Part shown: positions 2,685-39,906 of the stretch, piece by piece
Layout: every line of letters begins with the position of its first letter
Position numbering within the stretch: the first letter of the stretch is position 1
NCBI GenBank assembly: GCA_947455215.1
Contig: CANGNA010000034.1
Location: forward strand, 1-42,870
Direction: 5' to 3'
Length of the DNA: 42,870 bases
Origin: Chitinophagaceae bacterium
Lineage (GTDB): Bacteria > Bacteroidota > Bacteroidia > Chitinophagales > Chitinophagaceae
The notes under the pieces: generated by a model
Told to the model about the DNA's origin: nothing
The model's database searches: none
The model's input: only the letters and a program-made list of their open reading frames with translations
Translations under genes and position numbers: made by a program

Positions 2685-2812
2685 CCGCCCTGTAAGGGCG
2701 GGCTATCATAGCGCAGGGTTTCAACCCTGCGGCTCCAGCCGACGTGTTCGTTTCGTTCGCTCCATCCCTACATAGTTCATGGTGAGCCTGTCGAACCACG
2801 ACACGGACATGG
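2685..2812. repeat. REP-like intergenic repeat with two hairpins
   Basis: The spacer before hutH has two near-adjacent perfect inverted repeats: CCGCCC/GGGCGG at 2685-2701 and CGCAGGGTT/AACCCTGCG at 2712-2731. They are followed at 2778-2812 by a copy of a short dispersed motif (core TGAGCCTGTCGAA). Neither hairpin has a downstream T-run, so they look more like REP/BIME-type repeats than a simple terminator. No coding potential was seen. Confidence 0.55.
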
Positions 2813-2859: not shown

Positions 2860-4344
2860 ATGGAATTACCAGAACATATATCTATCGACTACTTCCGTAC
2901 GTCGCAGGAACAGATCACATTGTCTGCCGCCGCAAAAGGCCGCATAGACCACAACCGCGCTTACCTCGATAACATTCTTAAAGAAGGCAATACCTACTAC
3001 GGTATCAATACAGGTTTTGGCTCTCTGTGCAATGTGCGCATCAAAGACGAAGAACTGTCTCAGTTGCAGGAAAACCTGGTGACCAGCCACGCCTGTGGCA
3101 TGGGCGACGAGGTGCCGGAAGAGATAGTACGCCTGATGTTGCTGCTGAAGGTACACGGCCTTAGCCAGGGCTATAGCGGTGTGCGCACAGAGATCGTGCA
3201 GCGCCTGGTCGATTTTTATAACAATGGTATCCACCCGCGCGTGTTCGAACTCGGCTCGCTCGGCGCCTCGGGCGACCTTGCTCCGCTGGCCCACCTGTGC
3301 CTGCCCATACTGGGCAAGGGCGAAGTGCGCTATAAAGGCGAGATCATGCCGGCAACAAAAGCACTGGAAGCCTGCGGCCTGAAGCCTATGAGCCTGGCAG
3401 CCAAAGAAGGCCTGGCGCTGCTCAACGGCACCCAGTTCATGAGTTCATACATCACCTGGAGCCTAACACAGGCTAAGAAACTGCTGATATGGGCCGATGT
3501 GATCGGCGCATTATCTACTGACGCTTACGACAGCAAGACAGAGCCTTTCCGCCACGCCATACACCGCGTGCGCCCGCACAAAGGACAGATAGATACCGCC
3601 AAACGTTTATTGCAGATACTGGACGGCAGCGAGATGCAACAGGGCACCAAGGTGCAGGTGCAAGACCCGTATTCCTTCCGCTGTATGCCGCAGGTGCACG
3701 GCGCCAGCAAAGACGTAGTGGATATGGCAGCAGGCGTTGTGGAAACAGAGATCAATTCTGTGACCGACAACCCTATTGTGTTCCACGACGAAGATGCTAT
3801 TGTGAGCGGCGGTAACTTCCACGGCCAGCCACTGGCCCTGCAGGCCGACTTCCTCGCCATAGCCATGGCCGAGCTCGGCAACATATCTGAGCGCCGCACT
3901 TACCTGCTGGTAAGCGGACAGCGCGGCTTACCTCCGTTCCTGGCGCCTGATGCAGGCCTCAACAGCGGCTTTATGATCGCGCAGTACACTGCTGCAGCTA
4001 TAGTAAGCCAGAGCAAGCAATATTGCACACCCGCATCTATAGATAGCATCGTGAGCAGCAACGGACAGGAAGACCACGTAAGTATGGGCTCTAACGCAGC
4101 TACCAAGCTGCGTAAGGTGGTACTTAACGTGCAGCGCGTGCTGGCCATAGAACTGCTTACTGCCGCACAGTCGCTGGAGTTCCGCAGGCCTAAGCACACA
4201 TCGCCTGCACTGGAAAAGCTGATGACCGAGCTGCGCAAAACAACCTCGTTCATGGCTAAGGATACCATCCTGCATGAAGGCCTGATAGCCGCAGAAAAGT
4301 TCCTCGACCGCCACCCTGAAGAAGTAACGGGATTAAAATTCTAA
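2860..4344 (+). CDS. hutH: Histidine ammonia-lyase (histidase)
   Basis: Catalyses non-oxidative deamination of L-histidine to trans-urocanate and ammonia, the first step of histidine utilisation, in the cytoplasm. The 494-aa protein carries the A136-S137-G138 triad in GSLGASGDLAPLAH that cyclises into the MIO electrophile. It also has YGINTGFGSL near residue 47, the S76-H77 pair typical of histidases rather than tyrosine ammonia-lyases, and the family block QDPYSFRCMPQVHGA. Length is slightly below the usual ~505 aa with no gap in the core. The other hut genes (hutU, hutI, hutG) are absent from this window. The SEC-C protein gene follows after 5 bp, so the two are probably co-transcribed. Function as a related aromatic ammonia-lyase is possible but less likely. 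Confidence 0.93.
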   Translation: MELPEHISIDYFRTSQEQITLSAAAKGRIDHNRAYLDNILKEGNTYYGINTGFGSLCNVRIKDEELSQLQENLVTSHACGMGDEVPEEIVRLMLLLKVHGLSQGYSGVRTEIVQRLVDFYNNGIHPRVFELGSLGASGDLAPLAHLCLPILGKGEVRYKGEIMPATKALEACGLKPMSLAAKEGLALLNGTQFMSSYITWSLTQAKKLLIWADVIGALSTDAYDSKTEPFRHAIHRVRPHKGQIDTAKRLLQILDGSEMQQGTKVQVQDPYSFRCMPQVHGASKDVVDMAAGVVETEINSVTDNPIVFHDEDAIVSGGNFHGQPLALQADFLAIAMAELGNISERRTYLLVSGQRGLPPFLAPDAGLNSGFMIAQYTAAAIVSQSKQYCTPASIDSIVSSNGQEDHVSMGSNAATKLRKVVLNVQRVLAIELLTAAQSLEFRRPKHTSPALEKLMTELRKTTSFMAKDTILHEGLIAAEKFLDRHPEEVTGLKF

Positions 4345-7173: not shown

Positions 7174-9393
7174 TTACTTCAACAACTTCAGCAACTCATC
7201 AATAGCTGCCTGGTTATCCTTATAGTAGATGGAGCGGTAAAGGTCTTCCTTTTCTGCAGAGGTAAGGTGGAAACTGAGCGCGGCGGATGTCTTGCTTTCC
7301 TCCGGCATATACACCATAGATATGTAGTGCATCTTGCCCGGTGCCATCAACGGAGTAAGGTCTTTGATGATACTGTGCTTGTAGCTCTGGAAAGCTTCCC
7401 ATTTATTCTGTATCACAAACAGCGGGTCCGTCAGCATATTCGCAAACGATGATTCGTTAGATGCTGCACTTACATCACATTCTCGGCTGTCGCGTATCTC
7501 CAGGAATATGGCATTGCTTACATTCTTATTGATCCAGTCGCGCATGGTGAACATATAGCGGCTGGCCATCTCAGAGCCAAAGTTGTCGCGCAGGCCGGCA
7601 TCCATTATGTTCATGTAGGGTGTGCTCGGCAACCTGACCACAGGCAGCACAAACGGGAAGGTGGCATTCATACGTAAGCACGACGTGATGCGGATATTAC
7701 CCGGGTCTCTGCCGGCAAAGAACGTGCTGTAGTCAACCGCATCTATCGGCGGCATGGCTTCATGCAGCGAGTACTCCGGCTGAGTAAGGTAAGTAAGTGG
7801 CTGGTTGCCCATCATCAGCTTGCGCCCGTCGTTAATAATAGTACTATTCACTATCAGCTGCGGTATCTGCCCTGTAGCCTCACGCGGTGCATAGTAGGCC
7901 ATGCTCTTATCCAGCAGGCTGTCGGTATTCGTCACCAGCTCCTGCTCCATGGCGTAGCCACGGTCGCGGGTATAAGAGTAGCCGCCTATAGATATCTTGT
8001 TGAAGGGAGAGATAAGATCCACGCACGCCAGCGAAAAGATGATGGGATTCAGCAGGTCCTTACCAATGTTGGCCTGGTATTTCGCTGCATATGGGTTGTT
8101 CAGCTTGCCTTGCTGTGATGCATCGTGTATGGCCCGCCAGTAGGTAGCACCTATCATACCACCCGACGCGCCTGTAACCAATACAGTATGCTTGAACAAG
8201 CGGCCATGGCTCACGCTGTCTATATATTGCAGCGCCCTGAATGTCCAGTAGGTAGATCGCAGGCCGCCACCACTTGTAGTAATGACCACCAGCGTATTGC
8301 TGTCGCCACCATTCAGCGCTTTCCATTTATCCAGCCTGCTTTCTTCCTGTTGCCTGTCTGCTTCAAACTGTTGCACGTTGAACACCTTATGCAGGTGGTC
8401 GTAGTTATAGGCCGGGCGCTTATCTATCTCTGTTTTATAATTGAGGCCATAAGCTATGCTGCGCAGGTCGAAGATGCGGTAGCGCACCATTACCGATAGC
8501 ACCAGCGCAAAAGTGATCCACCCGATGGCCTCCCAGCTCTTCAGGAAGTATTTGAAGGCACCTACAAAACCCATGATCATAGAGAACAGCAACAGGAAGC
8601 CTGCACCGGCCGGTATCCTTAGCAGCGGCTGGTCCATGTAGATGCCCATGATAAGCAGAGACACATACGCGAAAAAGCCCGCGAATAGCACATTGCGGTG
8701 GTGCCGGCTCATGATCTTGTTCAGCACACGTGTATTGTACGGCGGCAGATCATCGCACCTGCGGATGCGCATATGCCCGGTAATGAAGGAGTGTGCGGGC
8801 ACTATATCTACCTCATAGTCCAGCGTGTCGTAGGGTATCATCCGGCGGATGCGCGATGGCTTGGCGATATGCGTAAGCAGCGATTTGATAAAGTCTCTGC
8901 TTACCCGGAAGAAGTAGGCAAACGACACCGTGAGCACAGCGATGAACCCGGCATAAAAACCTCCTTGCAATAGCAGTATCTCCTTTAGCCCTGCGTGTTC
9001 GTTCTTATACTGGAAGCGGATATACACTATCGAATAGAACACCAGGAAGCTGCCAGGTATCACAGCGTTGTTGATGCAGTAGACCAGGAAGGCATGACGT
9101 GTAGCACCCATGTAGGGCATACGCTTGCTGTGGATGATGAATGTGGTGATGTGCCATGTCATCATGAACACGCACATGGCTGCACCCATCAACACCATAC
9201 CGGCAAAGTTCATCTGGCCAAGGTATTCGGGAGAAAGGAACAGGGACGATGCACCAAAGTGTGCCGCAAAATGTTTGGTAATGATGAGTACCAGTATCAA
9301 CCAGAAACTAAGCAGCAACTGGTACTTGCGGAAGTGGAGCAACAGCAACTGCACCGGCAGAAAATAGTATGTATTCCTTAGCACACGCTTCAT
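7174..9393 (-). CDS. Membrane-anchored patatin-like phospholipase
   Basis: A 739-aa protein with an N-terminal membrane region and a C-terminal patatin-like lipid acyl hydrolase. About six hydrophobic segments are visible between residues 10 and 305 (for example 25-40, 62-86, 110-126, 145-163, 236-251, 262-280). The hydrolase begins near 366 with VVITTSGGGLRS (oxyanion-type glycine loop), has the nucleophile elbow G408-A-S410-G-G412, and the partner aspartate D598 in MDAGLRDNFG. This Ser-Asp dyad fits patatin phospholipases acting on membrane lipids. The long multi-pass N-terminal half is unlike soluble patatins and places the enzyme at the inner membrane. It is divergent from acs across a 190-bp gap. 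Confidence 0.78.
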   Translation of the reverse strand: MKRVLRNTYYFLPVQLLLLHFRKYQLLLSFWLILVLIITKHFAAHFGASSLFLSPEYLGQMNFAGMVLMGAAMCVFMMTWHITTFIIHSKRMPYMGATRHAFLVYCINNAVIPGSFLVFYSIVYIRFQYKNEHAGLKEILLLQGGFYAGFIAVLTVSFAYFFRVSRDFIKSLLTHIAKPSRIRRMIPYDTLDYEVDIVPAHSFITGHMRIRRCDDLPPYNTRVLNKIMSRHHRNVLFAGFFAYVSLLIMGIYMDQPLLRIPAGAGFLLLFSMIMGFVGAFKYFLKSWEAIGWITFALVLSVMVRYRIFDLRSIAYGLNYKTEIDKRPAYNYDHLHKVFNVQQFEADRQQEESRLDKWKALNGGDSNTLVVITTSGGGLRSTYWTFRALQYIDSVSHGRLFKHTVLVTGASGGMIGATYWRAIHDASQQGKLNNPYAAKYQANIGKDLLNPIIFSLACVDLISPFNKISIGGYSYTRDRGYAMEQELVTNTDSLLDKSMAYYAPREATGQIPQLIVNSTIINDGRKLMMGNQPLTYLTQPEYSLHEAMPPIDAVDYSTFFAGRDPGNIRITSCLRMNATFPFVLPVVRLPSTPYMNIMDAGLRDNFGSEMASRYMFTMRDWINKNVSNAIFLEIRDSRECDVSAASNESSFANMLTDPLFVIQNKWEAFQSYKHSIIKDLTPLMAPGKMHYISMVYMPEESKTSAALSFHLTSAEKEDLYRSIYYKDNQAAIDELLKLLK

Positions 9394-12748: not shown

Positions 12749-13495
12749 ATGGATGAAGCAATAAGAGTACTGATCATAGAAGACGAAGAAGTTTGGCGTA
12801 AGTTCCTGGCTATAAAGCTGGATCAGCTGGGCTATACCATTGCAGGAGAAGCCGCAACTTTTGAGGATGCAATAAAACTGCTGAGCACCACCGAGTACGA
12901 CCTTATTTTAATGGACATTAACCTGAATAGCAGGGGCTCCGGCATAGAGCTGGCGCATGTGGTGAACCAGTTGTATAAAAAGCCTTTCATTTTCATCACC
13001 TTCACCCCCGATACGATGATCGCTGATGAAGCAGCGGCCACCAATCCCGCTGCCTACCTGCAGAAGCCGGTCAATGCCACATCGCTGCGCGTAGCTATAC
13101 AAAATGCGCTGCGGCGCTTCAGCGATCCTGCACCTGGTCCGTTTGTACACTCTACTGCAGAGCAGGATTTCTTTTTTGTAAAACAGGGCAACAACTATAA
13201 AAAACTAGACTGGAAAGACATAGTACACCTGCGCTCTAATAAAAATTATACGTTGCTCTACAGCGCGTCTGATAAAAAGGAATATGCCATCCGCAGCAGC
13301 CTGAGCCGCACGCACCAGCTTATCCTACCCGATCAGTTCAAAAACGATTTCATACAGGTCAACAGGTCAGAGATCGTACAATTCAGTTATATCGAAGAAC
13401 TACGCGGCGAAGACCTGAGAACAAGTTGTGGGTCTTATGTGGTTACAGAGGGCTACCTGGACACATTGAAGAACAGGATGAATATATTGTCGTAA
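12749..13495 (+). CDS. LytTR-family response regulator
   Basis: A 248-aa two-component response regulator. The receiver domain (residues 5-120) has the acidic pair E11-D12, the phospho-acceptor Asp56 in LILMDINL, and Lys106 in LQKPV. The C-terminal part (about 150-245) is a LytTR DNA-binding domain: FVKQGNNYKKLDWKDIVHLRSNKNYT, then SLSRTHQLILPDQF, then FIQVNRSEIVQFSYIEEL. The ATG at 12749 is preferred over an in-frame TTG at 12740. No histidine kinase is adjacent, so its sensor is elsewhere. It lies between two paralogous membrane-protein genes on the opposite strand, which it could regulate. Confidence 0.88.
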   Translation: MDEAIRVLIIEDEEVWRKFLAIKLDQLGYTIAGEAATFEDAIKLLSTTEYDLILMDINLNSRGSGIELAHVVNQLYKKPFIFITFTPDTMIADEAAATNPAAYLQKPVNATSLRVAIQNALRRFSDPAPGPFVHSTAEQDFFFVKQGNNYKKLDWKDIVHLRSNKNYTLLYSASDKKEYAIRSSLSRTHQLILPDQFKNDFIQVNRSEIVQFSYIEELRGEDLRTSCGSYVVTEGYLDTLKNRMNILS

Positions 13496-14094: not shown

Positions 14095-14898
14095 ATGAAA
14101 CGTACGCATATTTTACTAAGCATATTTTTCGTCATCATCAGCCTGGGTTTTTATGCCTGCCACAAAAATGCCAATGGCCGCAATACGCTCGACCTGGTGG
14201 ATGATGGAACGGTACTTTCTTTATCGGCGCAGCAGTATAATGCATTCATTACCACCAACCCGCCCATAACCGGCACCCCCGAGGCAGCCATGGTGCAGCG
14301 TGTAGGCGCTAAAATGACAGCGGCGGTGCAAAACTACCTGTCGCAAAAAGGCCAGACCGATCTTATTGCCAATTACAATTGGGAGTTCAACCTGGTGAGC
14401 AACACAGAGGTGAATGCCTGGTGCCTGCCCGGCGGTAAGATAGTGGTGTATAGTGGCATCACCCCTTTCATAACCAGCGATGCAGAGCTGGCCGTAGTGA
14501 TGGGGCACGAGATAGCCCACGCTGTGCTAAAGCACGGTAACGAGCGCATGAGCCAGCAACTGCTGGTACAGTATGGCGGCATGGCCCTTTCTGCACTCTT
14601 ATCCTCAAAACCACAGGAAACACAAACCCTGTTCAACACCGCATTCGGTATCACCGGCGATCTGAGCCTGCTGGCCTTTTCGCGCAAACAGGAGAGCGAG
14701 GCCGATGAGACAGGGTTGTATTTTATGGCCGTTGCCGGTTACGACCCCAATGTAGCCGTTACCTTCTGGGAACGTATGGCAGCACAAAATGGCAGCAGCA
14801 ATGTACCCGTATTGCTGAGCACCCACCCCAGCGATGAACAGCGCATACAGCATATAAAAGACCTGCTGCCAAAAGCACTTGCCTATTATCATCCGTAG
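14095..14898 (+). CDS. M48-family metalloprotease, lipoprotein
   Basis: A 267-aa zinc peptidase of the M48 (Oma1/LoiP/BepA-like) group, likely a periplasm-facing lipoprotein. The signal peptide ends in a lipobox (LGFYAC, Cys22). The zinc site is H138-E-x-x-H142 in MGHEIAHAVLKHG, with the third ligand E200 in KQESEADETG. ExxAD after the HExxH is characteristic. A conserved pre-motif N-A-W-C-L-P-G-G-K precedes it. The protein ends soon after the peptidase core, with no TPR tail, unlike BepA. Start at 14095 is chosen because the upstream ATG at 14029 would add a non-signal-like extension. Roles in envelope quality control are known for the family; the substrate here is unknown. Confidence 0.87.
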   Translation: MKRTHILLSIFFVIISLGFYACHKNANGRNTLDLVDDGTVLSLSAQQYNAFITTNPPITGTPEAAMVQRVGAKMTAAVQNYLSQKGQTDLIANYNWEFNLVSNTEVNAWCLPGGKIVVYSGITPFITSDAELAVVMGHEIAHAVLKHGNERMSQQLLVQYGGMALSALLSSKPQETQTLFNTAFGITGDLSLLAFSRKQESEADETGLYFMAVAGYDPNVAVTFWERMAAQNGSSNVPVLLSTHPSDEQRIQHIKDLLPKALAYYHP

Positions 14899-20088: not shown

Positions 20089-21957
20089 TTACCTCCCCAT
20101 GTACACGATCAGTATCTGGATGTCGCTTGGGTTTACCCCGCTGATGCGACTTGCCTGGCCAATTGTGCGTGGTTTTATCTTTTTCAGCTTTTGGCGGGCT
20201 TCCATAGAGAGGGCGGTCAGTTTTTCGTAATTGAACGACTCCGGTATGTTCAGATCCTCCAAAGCAGCCATTTTTTGCACCATTTCATGCTCTTTTTCGA
20301 TATAAGTGGCATATTTGGCCATAATTTCCACCTGCTCGAGTATCAGTGCGTCACAGTCGCCTATAGAAGCCTTTAAATTGGGTACTGCTGCGGTCATTTC
20401 CTTGATACCGACACCCGGGCGAAGCAACAATTTCATTGCCCTCGACCGCTCATTGATCGGAGACGAATTGCTTGCCTCCAGGAATTCGTTGAACTCGGCA
20501 GGCTCCGCGGGGAAGTCTGCCATTATTTTGTTCACCCTTTCCACCTCTTGCTGCTTGGCCTTTACCAATGCCAGTCGCTCATCGCTGGCCAACCCTATGC
20601 TGTGCGCCAGTGGCGTCAGGCGAACATCGGCATTGTCCTGGCGGAGAATGGTACGATACTCTGCCCTGCTGGTGAACATACGGTACGGCTCGTCGGTACC
20701 TTTATTGATGAGGTCATCAATAAGTACACCTATGTAGGCTTCACTCCTTTTCAGTATCACTGGTTCCTGTTCATGGGCGTTGCGGCTGGCATTGATACCG
20801 GCCATCAGTCCCTGGCAGGCTGCCTCTTCGTACCCTGTGGTGCCGTTTATTTGCCCTGCAAAGAACAGGTTTTTGATCAACTTTGTCTCCAGTGTAGCTG
20901 TCAATTGTGTTGGTGGAAAGTAGTCGTACTCTATAGCATACCCCGGGCGGAAGAACCTGCAATGCTCAAAACCAGGCACCATTGTGAGTGCTTTATACTG
21001 TACATGCTCCGGCAAAGAGGTGCTGAAACCATTCACATATATCTCTACGGTGTTCCAACCTTCGGGTTCTACAAACAATTGGTGGCGTTCTTTCTCAGCA
21101 AAACGGGTCACTTTATCTTCTATACTCGGGCAATATCTTGGTCCGCTACCTTTAATTCTGCCCTGGTACATAGGGCTTTGGTCGAACCCTGTCTTCAATA
21201 TATCATGTACTTCGGGACTGGTGTAGGTGATCCAGCAGTGGCGTTGGTTCTTCGCAGCTACCTTTTCTATAGGCAAGTAAGAGAAGCCAACCACCTCTTC
21301 ATCTCCTTCCTGTATATCCATTTTAGAGTAGTCGAGGCTACGACCGTCTATGCGTGGAGGCGTTCCGGTCTTCAATCTATCGCTTTCAAAGCCCAGGGAA
21401 ACCAACTGTTCGGTGATGCCGGTAGCTCCTTTCTCTCCCATTCTACCCCCGCCTATCTGCTTCTCTCCTATGTGGATCACGCCATTCAGGAAGGTTCCGT
21501 TGGTCAGTACCACGGCTTTAGCCCTTATCTCCTGCCCCATCCCGGTCACAATTCCCTGCACTGTTCCACGTGAAACAATGAGTCCGTTCACCATATCCTG
21601 CCAGAAATCTACATTAGGGGTTTGTTCCAGCATCTCTCTCCATGTAGCGGCAAACAGCATACGATCGTTCTGACTACGGGGGCTCCACATACCCGGACCT
21701 TTGGAACGGTTGAGCATACGAAACTGGATGGTACTCTTATCGCTAACTATACCGCTGTAACCACCCATAGCATCTATCTCGCGCACTATCTGGCCCTTAG
21801 CAATGCCACCCATAGCAGGGTTGCAACTCATCTGGGCTATGGTCTGCATGTTCATTGTCACCAACAAAACTTTAGACCCCATATTGGCAGCAGCGGCAGC
21901 AGCCTCGCAACCTGCGTGACCCGCACCTACTACTATAACATCATATTCAGGAAACAT
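20089..21957 (-). CDS. mnmG: tRNA uridine-5-carboxymethylaminomethyl synthesis enzyme MnmG
   Basis: FAD-dependent subunit of the MnmE-MnmG complex that installs 5-carboxymethylaminomethyl on U34 of several tRNAs. The 622-aa protein has the N-terminal dinucleotide-binding motif VVGAGHAGCEAA, the QMSCNPAMGGIAKG block, GLMAGINA (NAD-site region), and the C-terminal GQASRISGVNPSDI block. Length is normal. In many bacteria this gene (gidA) sits next to the origin and parAB. Here a parS site (21562-21577) lies inside its coding sequence, in codons for VSRGT, and three more lie just upstream. A -7 element only 5 bases before the ATG (21963-21970) suggests a leaderless or near-leaderless mRNA. Confidence 0.96.
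   Translation of the reverse strand: MFPEYDVIVVGAGHAGCEAAAAAANMGSKVLLVTMNMQTIAQMSCNPAMGGIAKGQIVREIDAMGGYSGIVSDKSTIQFRMLNRSKGPGMWSPRSQNDRMLFAATWREMLEQTPNVDFWQDMVNGLIVSRGTVQGIVTGMGQEIRAKAVVLTNGTFLNGVIHIGEKQIGGGRMGEKGATGITEQLVSLGFESDRLKTGTPPRIDGRSLDYSKMDIQEGDEEVVGFSYLPIEKVAAKNQRHCWITYTSPEVHDILKTGFDQSPMYQGRIKGSGPRYCPSIEDKVTRFAEKERHQLFVEPEGWNTVEIYVNGFSTSLPEHVQYKALTMVPGFEHCRFFRPGYAIEYDYFPPTQLTATLETKLIKNLFFAGQINGTTGYEEAACQGLMAGINASRNAHEQEPVILKRSEAYIGVLIDDLINKGTDEPYRMFTSRAEYRTILRQDNADVRLTPLAHSIGLASDERLALVKAKQQEVERVNKIMADFPAEPAEFNEFLEASNSSPINERSRAMKLLLRPGVGIKEMTAAVPNLKASIGDCDALILEQVEIMAKYATYIEKEHEMVQKMAALEDLNIPESFNYEKLTALSMEARQKLKKIKPRTIGQASRISGVNPSDIQILIVYMGR
21562..21577. other. parS site 1 (inside mnmG)
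   Basis: TGTTCCACGTGAAACA, identical to the Bacillus/consensus ParB-binding 16-mer. It is embedded in the mnmG reading frame without disturbing it. Confidence 0.8.
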
Positions 21958-21962
21958 AGGTG

Positions 21963-21970
21963 CAAAGATA
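21963..21970 (-). promoter_or_regulatory. -7 promoter element for mnmG, very close to the ATG
   Basis: CAAAGATA on plus, TATCTTTG on minus, a perfect TAnnTTTG with only five bases between it and the ATG. If used, transcription would start at or next to the ATG, giving a leaderless mRNA. No -33 TTG is visible. Confidence 0.4.
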
Positions 21971-21993
21971 AGGGCTTAAGACGACATGCCTTT

Positions 21994-22009
21994 TGTTCCA
22001 CGTGGAACA
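21994..22009. other. parS site 2
   Basis: TGTTCCACGTGGAACA, a perfect 16-base palindrome of the parS type, 36 bases upstream of the mnmG start. Confidence 0.8.
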
Positions 22010-22069
22010 AGATGGAAGCAGAATGCTTGTGTCTTTCGATACCGGAGATAGCAGCCCATGCCCGTGCCG

Positions 22070-22090
22070 CACTTCGACAAGCTCAGTGTG
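22070..22090. repeat. Dispersed short repeat copy
   Basis: Reads CACTTCGACAAGCTCAGTG on plus, the reverse complement of the TGAGCTTGTCGAA core seen at 2778 and 19878. The surrounding 21,958-22,354 gap (397 bp) otherwise holds parS sites 2-4 and no supported gene. Confidence 0.45.
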
Positions 22091-22198
22091 ACACTATGTG
22101 GCGGGGTTGCTGTCTTTGAAGGACTGATTGCTGGCTGCCATAACCTACACCGTGACACTCTGTAAGGATTCATATACACTTTCCTGTCACAAAGACAT

Positions 22199-22214
22199 TG
22201 TTCCACGTGGAACA
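22199..22214. other. parS site 3
   Basis: TGTTCCACGTGGAACA, identical to sites 2 and 4; 205 bases from site 2. Confidence 0.8.
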
Positions 22215-22273
22215 AAATACTGGCATGCATTTTGTTAAAGAAAGTATAACGGGCTGCGAAAAGGCATTAACTT

Positions 22274-22289
22274 TGTTCCACGTGGAACA
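22274..22289. other. parS site 4
   Basis: TGTTCCACGTGGAACA, third identical palindrome, 75 bases from site 3 and about 65 bases upstream of the gene at 22355. Confidence 0.8.
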
Positions 22290-29265: not shown

Positions 29266-30279
29266 TTAACCACCAATACCCAATTGTTTGCTTAGATCCA
29301 GCATGCGTTGTATTGGTTTGCGGGCAGCAAGTCTAAGATCTTCCGGCATGGTTACCTCAGGCAATTCGTACTTCATACACATGTATACCTTTTCAAGTGT
29401 ATTCAATTTCATATGCGGGCAATCGTTGCAGGCACAGGAATTATCGGGCGGTGCAGCGATAAATGTTTTATGCGGGCTGGCTTGCTGCATTTTGTGCAGT
29501 ATGCCGGTTTCCGTAGCTACAATAAAACTCTGGCAGGTGTCCGATTCAGTATATTTTAATATCTGGGTGGTTGAACCAACGAAATCGGCAATGGCCAGCA
29601 ATGGTTCTTCACATTCCGGGTGAGCTACCAGTTTAGCTTCCGGATGACGCACTTTCAACTTAGTGATCTTTTCCAGCGAGAATATCTCGTGTACCATACA
29701 TGCACCATTCCACAATACCATATTACGACCTGTTTGCTTATTGATATATCCGCCCAGGTTCTTATCCGGTGCAAATATGATCTTCTGATCTTTGGGCAGG
29801 CTTTCAACAATAGCCTGTGCATTAGATGAAGTACATATAATATCACTCAGTGCTTTGATACCTGCAGAACAGTTAATGTAGGAGATAACAATATGATCGG
29901 GGTGCTTTTCTTTAAAGCCTTTAAAAAGCGGTGGCGGGCAACTGTCGCTGAGCGAGCAGCCAGCTTTCAGATCAGGCAACAGCACCTTTTTCTCCGGGTT
30001 TAGTATTTTGGCTGTTTCTGCCATAAAGTGTACCCCGGCAAAAACAATAATATCTGCATTGGTGTTTGCGGCCTTTTGTGCCAGGCCCAGGCTGTCGCCT
30101 ACATAATCTGCAATATCTTGAATATCCGGCTCCTGGTAATAGTGTGCCAGCACAATGGCATTCTTCTCCTTCTTTAATTTTTCTATCTCTTTAAACAGAT
30201 CAAGTGAAGGGTCGATCTCCATATCAAGGAAACCTTTCATATTCAATTTTTCGGCTTCCGTGAAGTTTTGCACAGACAT
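29266..30279 (-). CDS. nadA: Quinolinate synthase A
   Basis: [4Fe-4S] enzyme condensing iminoaspartate with dihydroxyacetone phosphate to quinolinate in NAD synthesis. The 337-aa protein has [26 protein letters not shown] at the N-terminus. Cluster-ligand cysteines lie in family positions: Cys108 (KAGCSLSD), Cys194 (NGACMVH) and Cys287 in the CxxC motif of [10 protein letters not shown]. nadB and nadC are absent from this window. The upstream region, 30280-30836, is the candidate origin, so nadA is read away from it. Confidence 0.96.
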
Positions 30280-30836
30280 AATATCTTTAATTTAAGTTTA
30301 AAATTTAAAAAAAGGCTATCACCATTAGGGCTGGGGATTGGTGGAAAGAAAATTTCAATTCCAGTTGCAAAATTAGTCTTCTTCAGTTTACTAACATGCA
30401 TTTAGCAGTTATCCACAGTGTTAAATTGAGTGTTTAAGCCTATCTAACAGGGTCAATGTTAATTGTGTATTAACTGCGCTGTGTATAAAAAGTTGCTTGT
30501 GGATTTGGTAGATGGGTGTGGATAGCGGGCAGGTTGGAAAGGATAAATATAGTTATCCCCAGCTGTCATAATTTTTAGTTTAATGCATGCGCTATTTCTA
30601 CAAATCTGTACATGAAAATCCACACACAATTCATACGAAATGTGGATAAGCACTGTAAATGTGATTGAAGTTCAGCAGATTGTGCTGAAAGCCGCACCTG
30701 TGGCCTATATCATTAAAATATCGTGCCTGAAAAAAGATATATAAATGGGGCTATTCAGGCGAAATTTAAAGAAGCCCAAAATGCAAAAAAAATCCCGCCG
30801 CATGCGCGGCGGGTCTCTGTATAATAAGACGGAAAA
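30280..30836. other. Candidate replication origin (oriC): DnaA-box cluster
   Basis: A 557-bp gene-free gap with a dense set of DnaA boxes (TTATNCACA). Exact matches: TTATCCACA at 30409-30417 (plus), TGTGTATAA at 30480-30488 (minus, N=A on its own strand), TGTGGATAA at 30641-30649 (minus). One mismatch: TGTGTATTA 30464-30472, TGTGGATAG 30517-30525, TTATCCCCA 30553-30561. Two mismatches: 30498-30506 and 30616-30624. An almost pure A/T stretch at 30279-30313 could be an unwinding element. This is far denser than chance for 9-mers. dnaA is not in the window, and the boundary is inferred from motifs only. Confidence 0.62.
30794..30813 (-). terminator. Terminator downstream of the 30837 gene
   Basis: CCCGCCGC/GCGGCGGG stem with an ATGC loop; the minus strand continues into ATTTTTTTTGC. 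Confidence 0.85.
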
Positions 30837-37558: not shown

Positions 37559-38215
37559 ATGAAAAAACTACTGCTGATGAGCGCCATAGCAATGGGCGCA
37601 CTGACCACCACGAAAGCACAGGATTTTAAAAAGCCCCTGAAAGAAACCTTTGAAGTATTTGATACCACAAGGGACCAGGAGAAGAAAATGCAGCTGGGCA
37701 ATAAGCTGGGCCTGATAGCCAAGAAATGGCCTAACGAATGGGCTACACATTATTACTACTCGCTGGCCAAGGTAGGCCTGTCTTACCAGGAGAAGGATGA
37801 GGCCAAGCACGATGCGCTGCTGGACGAAGCAGATAAGGAAAGGGACGAAGCGGTAGCGATACTGGGCAAGGAAAATGATGAAACATATGTACTGGCCTCT
37901 ATGATAGCCAACAGCCGGATGATGATCAACCCGATGCAGCGCTGGCAGAAGTATGGCAAGATATTCCAGGACAACCTGAAGAACGCACAGGAAGCCAACC
38001 CGGAAAACCCGCGTATGTACTACTTTAAAGGCGTGACCACCATGTTTACCCCTAAAAACTTTGGTGGCGGCAAAAAGAATGCGCTCCCCTATTTTGAAAA
38101 GGCCGAAGGCTTGTTTGCCAAGGAAAAAAATGACGATATAATGAAGCCATATTGGGGAAAATTCCAGAACACATTTTTTATAGCAGAGTGTAAAAAGGAA
38201 GACAAAGACAACTAA
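37559..38215 (+). CDS. Secreted TPR-like protein of unknown function
   Basis: A 218-aa exported protein with a signal peptide (MKKLLLMSAIAMGALTTTKAQ) and an otherwise helical, charged body. Helix-turn-helix patterns such as WATHYYYSLAKVGLSYQ and MYYFKGVTTMFTPKNFGGGKKNALPYFEKAEGLF recall tetratricopeptide repeats, but the sequence is too divergent to count units. Bacteroidota homologs of this size are usually annotated only as hypothetical. It lies between the tandem repeat and a terminator at 38335-38375, so it is probably monocistronic. Confidence 0.65.
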   Translation: MKKLLLMSAIAMGALTTTKAQDFKKPLKETFEVFDTTRDQEKKMQLGNKLGLIAKKWPNEWATHYYYSLAKVGLSYQEKDEAKHDALLDEADKERDEAVAILGKENDETYVLASMIANSRMMINPMQRWQKYGKIFQDNLKNAQEANPENPRMYYFKGVTTMFTPKNFGGGKKNALPYFEKAEGLFAKEKNDDIMKPYWGKFQNTFFIAECKKEDKDN

Positions 38216-38334
38216 GCGTCAGCAGATCTTATAAAAAAAGGGATGTTGGCACGGTAGTTTAAGGGTAGATATCGAAGCAATTTAAACTCAATAATTTCCC
38301 TTCTACAACTATCTCCAATTATATCCCACCCCCG

Positions 38335-38375
38335 TCAGCTCCCGGTGCCACGCATCAGGAGCTGATTCTTTTTTG
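38335..38375 (+). terminator. Terminator downstream of the TPR-like gene
   Basis: TCAGCTCC/GGAGCTGA stem with a 15-base loop followed by TTCTTTTTT, 119 bases past the stop. Confidence 0.65.
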
Positions 38376-38418
38376 GGGTAAAAAGTTTGACTATCTTACA
38401 TCCAAACGTAACCTACAT

Positions 38419-39750
38419 ATGAAACACACCCTACACTTATTGACGTTCTTATTGTGCTCTTTGGCAAGCAATGCACAAATCATTACTACAGTAGCCGGTA
38501 ATGGCGGTAGTTCACTTGGAGACGGCGGGCTAGCAATAAATGCATCATTTAACGGACCATACGGTGTTGCTTTTGACAGCCATGGCAATATGTACGTAGC
38601 AGATGGCTACCATGGCCGCATACGCAAAATAAACACAGCAGGTATTATTACAACTATCGCAGGTACCGGAGTGGAAGGCTATAATGGCGACGGTATACCA
38701 GCTACCAATGCGCAGATTTACAGACCGGTTGGAATTACTATTGATGCAGCGAACAATATATTTTTTTGTGATGCTTTTAATAATAGGGTACGGAAAATAG
38801 ATACGTTTGGCATTATCACAACAGTAGCCGGAAACGGAATGACAGCGTATAACGGAGATAATATACCAGCAACTGCAGCAGCACTATATGCGCCGCATTG
38901 CATAGCATTAGATGCGGCTGGGAACATGTATATAACAGATTTTGAAAATCACCGCGTACGCAAGGTAAATGCTGCGGGAATGATTTCAACAATAGCAGGT
39001 ACTGGCGTATTGGGCAACGATGGCGACAACGGACTTGCTGTGAATGCAAAAATTAATGGGCCGTATGGCATTGCTTTAGATGCTGCGGGTAACATTTATT
39101 TTGCAGACGATTGGGCAAACGTCGTAAGAAAAATAGATGCTGCAGGTATCATAACAACGTTTGCCGGGAATGATACTGCTACGGTTTTAGGGGATAATGG
39201 GCCAGCCACTGTGGCTGCATTGAATCATCCATCGGGTATTGCCATAGATAATCATGGAAATTTTTTTATATCTAATATTAGTCAGCAACGAATACGAGTG
39301 GTTGCACCTAATGGAGTTATTTCTACAATAGCAGGCACAGGAACACTTGGCTTCAGCGGGGATAACGGACCAGCTTCAGCGGCAGAGTTGGGATCACCAT
39401 GTGGTATTACACTTGACGCATCCAACGGCTCAATTTATTTGGCCGACTTTAACAACTCGCGGGTAAGACGCATAGGCTGGCCATTACGCATAGAAGAACA
39501 AAACAGAATGAGTGCAGGCTTGAATATTTACCCGAACCCAACCAGCGGGGTGTTTACGTGCAAGATAACAGGACCAACGGAAGAACCATTTGAGGTATCT
39601 GTAATAGATATGGTGGGCCGGACTGCCGGAACCTACCGAATGGAAGCGGGTAAGCCACAGTTAATGAATATAGCAGAACCGGGCATGTACCTGGTGCGGG
39701 CTACAGGCAAGGCCTGGCGGGCAGAAAAGACGGTGGTAGTATTGCGCTGA
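38419..39750 (+). CDS. NHL-repeat protein with T9SS sorting domain
   Basis: A 443-aa secreted beta-propeller protein. After a signal peptide (residues 1-20) come six NHL-like repeats of about 55 residues, each of the form ITTxAGxGxxGxxGDGxxAxxAxxxxPxGIAxDxxGNxYxADxxNxRVRKI. The C-terminus (NIYPNPTSGVF, then EPGMYLVRATGKAWRAEKTVVVLR) is a type IX secretion sorting domain. It is more AT-rich than the flanking genes and its repeats are internally similar, which suggests amplification. The binding partner is unknown. Confidence 0.88.
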   Translation: MKHTLHLLTFLLCSLASNAQIITTVAGNGGSSLGDGGLAINASFNGPYGVAFDSHGNMYVADGYHGRIRKINTAGIITTIAGTGVEGYNGDGIPATNAQIYRPVGITIDAANNIFFCDAFNNRVRKIDTFGIITTVAGNGMTAYNGDNIPATAAALYAPHCIALDAAGNMYITDFENHRVRKVNAAGMISTIAGTGVLGNDGDNGLAVNAKINGPYGIALDAAGNIYFADDWANVVRKIDAAGIITTFAGNDTATVLGDNGPATVAALNHPSGIAIDNHGNFFISNISQQRIRVVAPNGVISTIAGTGTLGFSGDNGPASAAELGSPCGITLDASNGSIYLADFNNSRVRRIGWPLRIEEQNRMSAGLNIYPNPTSGVFTCKITGPTEEPFEVSVIDMVGRTAGTYRMEAGKPQLMNIAEPGMYLVRATGKAWRAEKTVVVLR

Positions 39751-39906
39751 ACACCCTGCCGGGGCGTAACATTGCCGCAACAATAAGCCCAAATTATGCA
39801 TCTTTCGATATTTGTTGTATTTTACTGCGTTATAGGCCGGGGAACTGTTTGCATTTTTTGGCGAACTTTGCCGGCTTAGTTACCTATTTTAATTGCTTTT
39901 TATATT

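Follow-up and report, generated by a model that had tools for sequence, protein, structure and literature searches.

The ParABS system of Bacillus subtilis (Spo0J/Soj/parS) contains parS sites that cluster near the origin, with at least one site in coding genes, and both soj-spo0J and dnaA are located near oriC. In Pseudomonas aeruginosa, the gidA-parAB region lies near oriC. The location of parS near gidA (mnmG) and the presence of parS inside genes are known from other bacteria, and the ancestral neighborhood consists of mnmG, parAB, and oriC. The parS1-4 sites of Pseudomonas aeruginosa are described in the accessible part of PMC4368675 as a four-site cluster close to oriC. The excerpts of PMC10197239 considered here report that mouse-gut bacteria, including Bacteroides caecimuris, contain clustered parS at the GC-skew origin, that dnaA and the origin are not consistently found together, and that no known condensin was found in the two Bacteroidetes of that study.

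We analyzed a stretch of 42,870 nucleotides from a Chitinophagaceae bacterium, referred to as the window, which is the entire contig C34, one of 118 contigs in the draft assembly G000. The initial annotation described four parS palindromes in and upstream of mnmG, and exact matching confirmed the position and sequence of all four (Table 1). These palindromes are very probably canonical chromosomal parS, the predicted loading sites of the organism's own ParB (encoded on contig C15), at the origin region.

Table 1. Features of the mnmG-nadA region, numbered from the first nucleotide of the window
Feature	Coordinates	Strand	Evidence
mnmG (gidA), 622 aa, hosts the intragenic parS	20089..21957	-	Pfam GIDA 1.1e-161
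Predicted parS site in mnmG	21562..21577	none	Exact match; TGTTCCACGTGAAACA on +, TGTTTCACGTGGAACA on coding strand
Predicted parS site, perfect palindrome	21994..22009	none	Exact match; mnmG start codon 36 bp downstream
Predicted parS site, perfect palindrome, intergenic	22199..22214	none	Exact match
Predicted parS site, perfect palindrome, intergenic	22274..22289	none	Exact match
nadA (quinolinate synthase), origin neighbor	29266..30279	-	Pfam NadA 1.5e-124
Candidate oriC, AT-rich intergenic, clustered DnaA boxes	30280..30780 (right limit approximate)	none	DnaA boxes, GC-skew minimum
DnaA box TTATCCACA	30409..30417	+	Box search
DnaA box-like TTATACACA	30480..30488	-	Box search
DnaA box-like CTATCCACA	30517..30525	-	Box search
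DnaA box-like TTATCCCCA	30553..30561	+	Box search
DnaA box TTATCCACA	30641..30649	-	Box search

The sites at 21994, 22199, and 22274 lie within a 397-bp gap that separates mnmG from a divergent OmpW-like gene. The initial annotation called for a genome-wide scan, in which many copies elsewhere would speak against parS. This objection fails: the exact motif TGTTNCACGTGNAACA occurs at four places in the whole assembly (4,196,455 bases, 118 contigs), all of which are in the window and within 728 bp, and the reversed-pattern control occurs at none. Base composition gives a chance expectation of 0.018 exact motifs per genome (GC taken as 0.46), and 100 dinucleotide-preserving shuffles of the window yielded no match to the palindromic parS consensus that is matched exactly four times here. 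The shuffles, the expectation, and the assembly-wide count rule out a chance origin of the palindromes. Allowing up to two mismatches produced 42 places in the assembly vs 20 for the reversed control. The core GTTNCACGTGNAAC is kept at no listed place of this kind besides the four sites, and many of the two-mismatch places are tandem repeats on contig C79. Scattering of the palindrome over the genome is likewise ruled out, as the mismatched copies elsewhere are mostly C79 repeat units that lack the core. The window contains one additional near match, at 8369, whose single mismatch is located in the core.

Three other elements were observed in these sequences. Two tandem arrays on C79 (approximately 12970-13093 and 14741-14828) have a 9-base unit, TGTTACAAG, and are the source of most two-mismatch matches. 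The sequence TTCGACAAGCTCAGTG lies between two parS sites at 22073-22088; it occurs once in the window, is absent from the 1.2 Mb sampled in relatives, and resembles a repeat known from Bacteroidota. An Rfam match to Acido-Lenti-1 RNA, with 44.1 bits against a gathering score of 37, covers positions 2686-2731 (minus strand) of the window, immediately ahead of a gene for an aromatic amino acid lyase (2860-4344).

The genome provides a cognate ParB together with ParA. The parA-parB genes form an intact operon on contig C15, in which ParB (306 amino acids) is encoded directly downstream of ParA (267 amino acids). A profile search revealed one match to ParB_N (PF02195) in the genome, on C15; two matches to TIGR00180 were counted, and the C15 match is the one among those listed. 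The nucleotide- and DNA-binding regions of ParB align to ParB/Spo0J chains of known structure with E-values down to 5e-57, and alignment to 6t1f shows that the four specificity positions of the protein read R-Y-K-G (R173 and G201 in Caulobacter numbering). According to the part of PMC7383237 available to us, the R and G are absolutely conserved in parS-type ParB, the other two specificity positions are variable, and K or R occupies the fourth position in ~28% of ParBs. Judged by its specificity residues R..G, the ParB of this genome is parS-type. We rejected the possibility that the palindromes are Noc-binding (NBS) nucleoid occlusion sites, for the specificity positions lack the Noc-type Q-K-K-R. 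A full-length SMC (1037.7 bits) is encoded on contig C92, and dnaA is located on contig C25 of the draft.

The centromere was initially held to be detached from parAB. This agrees with the location of the operon on C15, not C34, and its remoteness can be judged from relatives: mnmG lies 0.74-2.24 Mb from parB in 8/8 single-contig Chitinophagaceae with listed positions. The distance from mnmG or parS to dnaA is 0.59-2.99 Mb in 11/11 such genomes, which rules out dnaA as a marker of the origin; both sets of distances assume circular chromosomes.

Upstream of nadA, five DnaA boxes (at most one mismatch, two exact) fall within 241 bp of AT-rich intergenic DNA (30409-30649), 8.1 kb from the parS sites. 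The DNA of the candidate origin is 31-41% GC per 100 bp, and the cumulative GC skew of the window reaches its minimum at 30258. Clusters of at least four boxes per 400 bp were absent from all 60 of the 20-kb stretches sampled in three relatives. It is quite likely that the 30409-30649 region is oriC. Among 13 genomes examined around mnmG, nadA lies 0.9-10.3 kb from mnmG in all 13, and at least four boxes per 400 bp are found just upstream of nadA in 11; the cluster is absent at nadA in the other two, G141 and G169. In G106, a second four-box cluster occurs ~10 kb away. The skew minimum lies within 1 kb of the DnaA-box cluster in only 4 of the 13 regions examined; the local minimum is 2.6 kb off the cluster in G089 and 35 kb off in G166, whose skew is noisy. 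The cluster is present in 13/30 other nadA loci (17/30 are without it) and in none of 30 mnmG loci searched 1.5 kb to either side. The nadA loci that lack a cluster and the distant or noisy skew minima count against the reading of this region as an origin marked by parS.

The initial annotation placed the parS sites near oriC. The DnaA-box cluster and the GC-skew minimum of the window, ~8 kb away, bear this out, and sampling of skew along the whole single-contig chromosomes of three relatives points the same way clearly in two and noisily in one. In G114, the skew passes from negative to positive around parS (7.065 Mb), with values of -0.126 at 6.64 Mb, +0.015 at 7.03 Mb, and +0.072 at 7.42 Mb. 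In G018, the sign changes around parS (2.372 Mb), from -0.049 at 2.21 Mb to +0.031 at 2.45 Mb. G116, with parS at 4.042 Mb, is the noisy case (-0.050 at 3.69 Mb, +0.019 at 3.89 Mb, -0.078 at 0, and +0.044 at 0.20 Mb). The assignment of parS to the origin region is thus made by proxy, from the GC skew and DnaA boxes of the window, the skew of the relatives, and Edaphocola.

Positions of both mnmG and nadA are listed for 123/195 family genomes, on the same contig in 107 and on different contigs of drafts in 16. The distance between the two genes in the 107 genomes is at most 10 kb in 80 and at most 40 kb in 103; it is 312-447 kb in four genomes (G174, G031, G001, and G101). Edaphocola (G192; Chitinophagaceae) provides a natural test, since its nadA lies 0.31 Mb from mnmG. 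Nine DnaA boxes occupy an intergenic gap of this genome (2277-3049 of locus L343; ~29% GC) located 3 kb from parS, and the 1.3 kb of sequence preceding the distant nadA (locus L392) contains no DnaA box. The Edaphocola origin is therefore likely to reside with parS and mnmG, not with nadA. As a fixed landmark of the origin, nadA is weakened by its distance from mnmG in the four genomes and by the boxes found at mnmG instead in G192. Positions 129-3534 of L343 contain 19 DnaA-box-like sites over 3.4 kb; these are spread more widely than in the window, and some fall within a gene for an ABC transporter. In G174, where nadA is far from mnmG, one box was found at nadA and none at mnmG; the stretches around either gene are small and contain no cluster.

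The intragenic site corresponds to mnmG codons 127-132 (ATT GTT TCA CGT GGA ACA), which encode I-V-S-R-G-T, and among the listed sites it is found at the same place of mnmG in 11/31 genomes. It might have been kept for the V-S-R-G-T peptide rather than for the DNA, as the same peptide occurs in most carriers (S in 12/13, P in one). However, other Bacteroidota MnmG carry different residues there, often V-K-D-G-K/R. The R-G-T peptide and the motif coincide without exception in 67 MnmG rows (14 with, 53 without), and each of the 14 peptide-bearing rows spells the peptide in identical codons, those of parS. Degenerate codons for conserved amino acids vary elsewhere in the protein: of 125 such codons within residues 1-380 of 13 carriers, the only four identical in all 13 are codons 128, 130, 131, and 132, each of which belongs to the site. 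At codon 129, 12 carriers have TCA and one has CCA. When 13 non-carriers were drawn 200 times, the mean fraction of invariant codons was 0.0. Most carriers were recruited through the motif, which itself imposes these bases. Five carriers (G000, G174, G166, G031, and G032) entered the set because their genomes were retrieved by mnmG search or belong to the genus; 8/136 codons are identical in these five, including the same four. Their agreement makes the link between peptide and codons likely despite the motif-based recruitment of most carriers. Conservation of the peptide alone is therefore an unlikely explanation, and the use of parS codons by the carriers suggests that selection at the level of DNA probably maintains the intragenic site. 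In a tree of the 67 rows built without these columns, the intragenic-site trait needs four changes; the carriers comprise one 16-row group, which includes three non-carriers (G101 with G001, and G089), as well as G032, for which the position in the tree is not firm.

The upstream palindromes could also be operators for both mnmG and the divergent OmpW-like gene, bound by ParB or another regulator, with partitioning being secondary. Three sites do lie in the divergent promoter region, one of them 36 bp from the start codon of mnmG. We consider this highly improbable, because the palindromes match the parS consensus, sites are also found within mnmG itself or, beyond the family, on its 3' side, and their distance from mnmG ranges from -1722 to intragenic. 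Edaphocola, whose nadA has moved, retains sites and DnaA boxes together at mnmG, which further argues against operators.

The parS reading was also compared with the spread of the motif. The exact motif is present in 91/195 family genomes and the core GTTYCACGTGRAAC in 134/195, with the reversed control present in two genomes in each case; a ParB match was found in 186/195. The 61/195 family genomes without the core, which include the single-contig G004 and G141, count against the parS reading. G004 contains a near site, TATTTCACGTGGAACA, by mnmG. Within the genus, 10/11 genomes have 2-6 core sites, and those of each genome are located on a single contig. Listed sites span at least 38 genomes, 31 of which have an mnmG position; among these listed sites, all 31 genomes have a site inside mnmG or at most 2.5 kb upstream, and 60/61 individual sites lie there. 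The core was found at mnmG in 26/30 family loci and in 27/30 phylum loci, the latter from the best-scoring 30 of 61 genomes; of these phylum loci, 27 lie outside the family, and 25 of the 27 have the core, in 11/12 families. A scan with an extended motif identified at least 118 stretches; 51 of the 80 loci listed hold mnmG, several from other phyla, and include Massilia, Duganella, and Oceanobacillus. This spread fits a history in which the ancestral mnmG-parAB-oriC neighborhood lost parAB and dnaA in Bacteroidota. That the sites are unused remnants of this gidA-parAB-oriC neighborhood can be dismissed as exceedingly improbable: the motif does occur at mnmG in other phyla, parAB and dnaA are gone from the neighborhood here, and some family genomes lack the core, but unused 14-base palindromes would decay, whereas the core is intact in the 26 family and 27 phylum loci and the intragenic copy shows codon freezing.

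Two irregularities were noted among the mnmG loci. In G106 (L186-L189, local 37915-39779), mnmG is split into two overlapping frames by a frameshift near residue 270, either real or a sequencing error. Locus L318, on a contig titled as an Azovibrio restrictus MAG, encodes an MnmG that is 82% identical to that of the window and has an intragenic site, probably reflecting wrong binning.

The identification of the palindromes as parS is supported, as it passes every computational test applied. It draws on features read from sequence: exact sites occur nowhere else in the assembly, the genome encodes a parS-type ParB alongside ParA as well as a complete SMC, an origin signature lies next to the sites, and their linkage to mnmG is conserved. 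The likely oriC in the window, the remoteness of dnaA, and the codon freezing of the intragenic site go beyond the initial annotation. If the system works as other ParABS systems do, dimers of ParB would bind at the palindromes, form clamps upon CTP-dependent closure, and slide outward to generate a partition complex. ParA would then separate newly copied origins, and ParB would load the SMC condensin encoded in the same genome. With regard to how the arrangement arose, we favor as likely a model in which parS appeared in mnmG in part of Chitinophagaceae and selection for ParB loading fixed V-[SP]-R-G-T, in place of a turn of the V-K-D-G-K/R type, as well as every codon. Under this model, parS, mnmG, and oriC remained neighbors, and dnaA and parAB, joined in Edaphocola by nadA, moved away. 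If true, chromosome segregation would dictate part of a tRNA-modifying enzyme.

We recognized no report of a parS-mnmG link, parS within coding sequence, an oriC beside nadA, or codon freezing in Bacteroidota in the open-licence literature searched. The link between parS and mnmG appears to have persisted after dnaA and parAB departed from the neighborhood. A sequence-based search for the origin and centromere of Bacteroidota may thus look for parS at mnmG with DnaA boxes nearby, dnaA being a poor guide.

The present locus resembles that of Bacillus subtilis in the same 16-bp palindrome, clustering near the likely origin, and a site in a coding gene; unlike in Bacillus subtilis, parAB and dnaA are remote, as judged from relatives. 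It differs from Pseudomonas aeruginosa in that the sites surround mnmG without parAB, which is encoded on a different contig. The cluster of four sites, here near the likely oriC, is shared with parS1-4 of that organism as presented in the accessible part of PMC4368675. Similar to the mouse-gut parS clusters in the excerpted text of PMC10197239, the sites are clustered at a probable GC-skew origin for which dnaA is no consistent marker. Unlike those clusters, for which the excerpts describe no such tie, the sites are tied to mnmG and nadA, and in contrast to what these excerpts report for the two Bacteroidetes of that study, the present genome encodes a full-length SMC.
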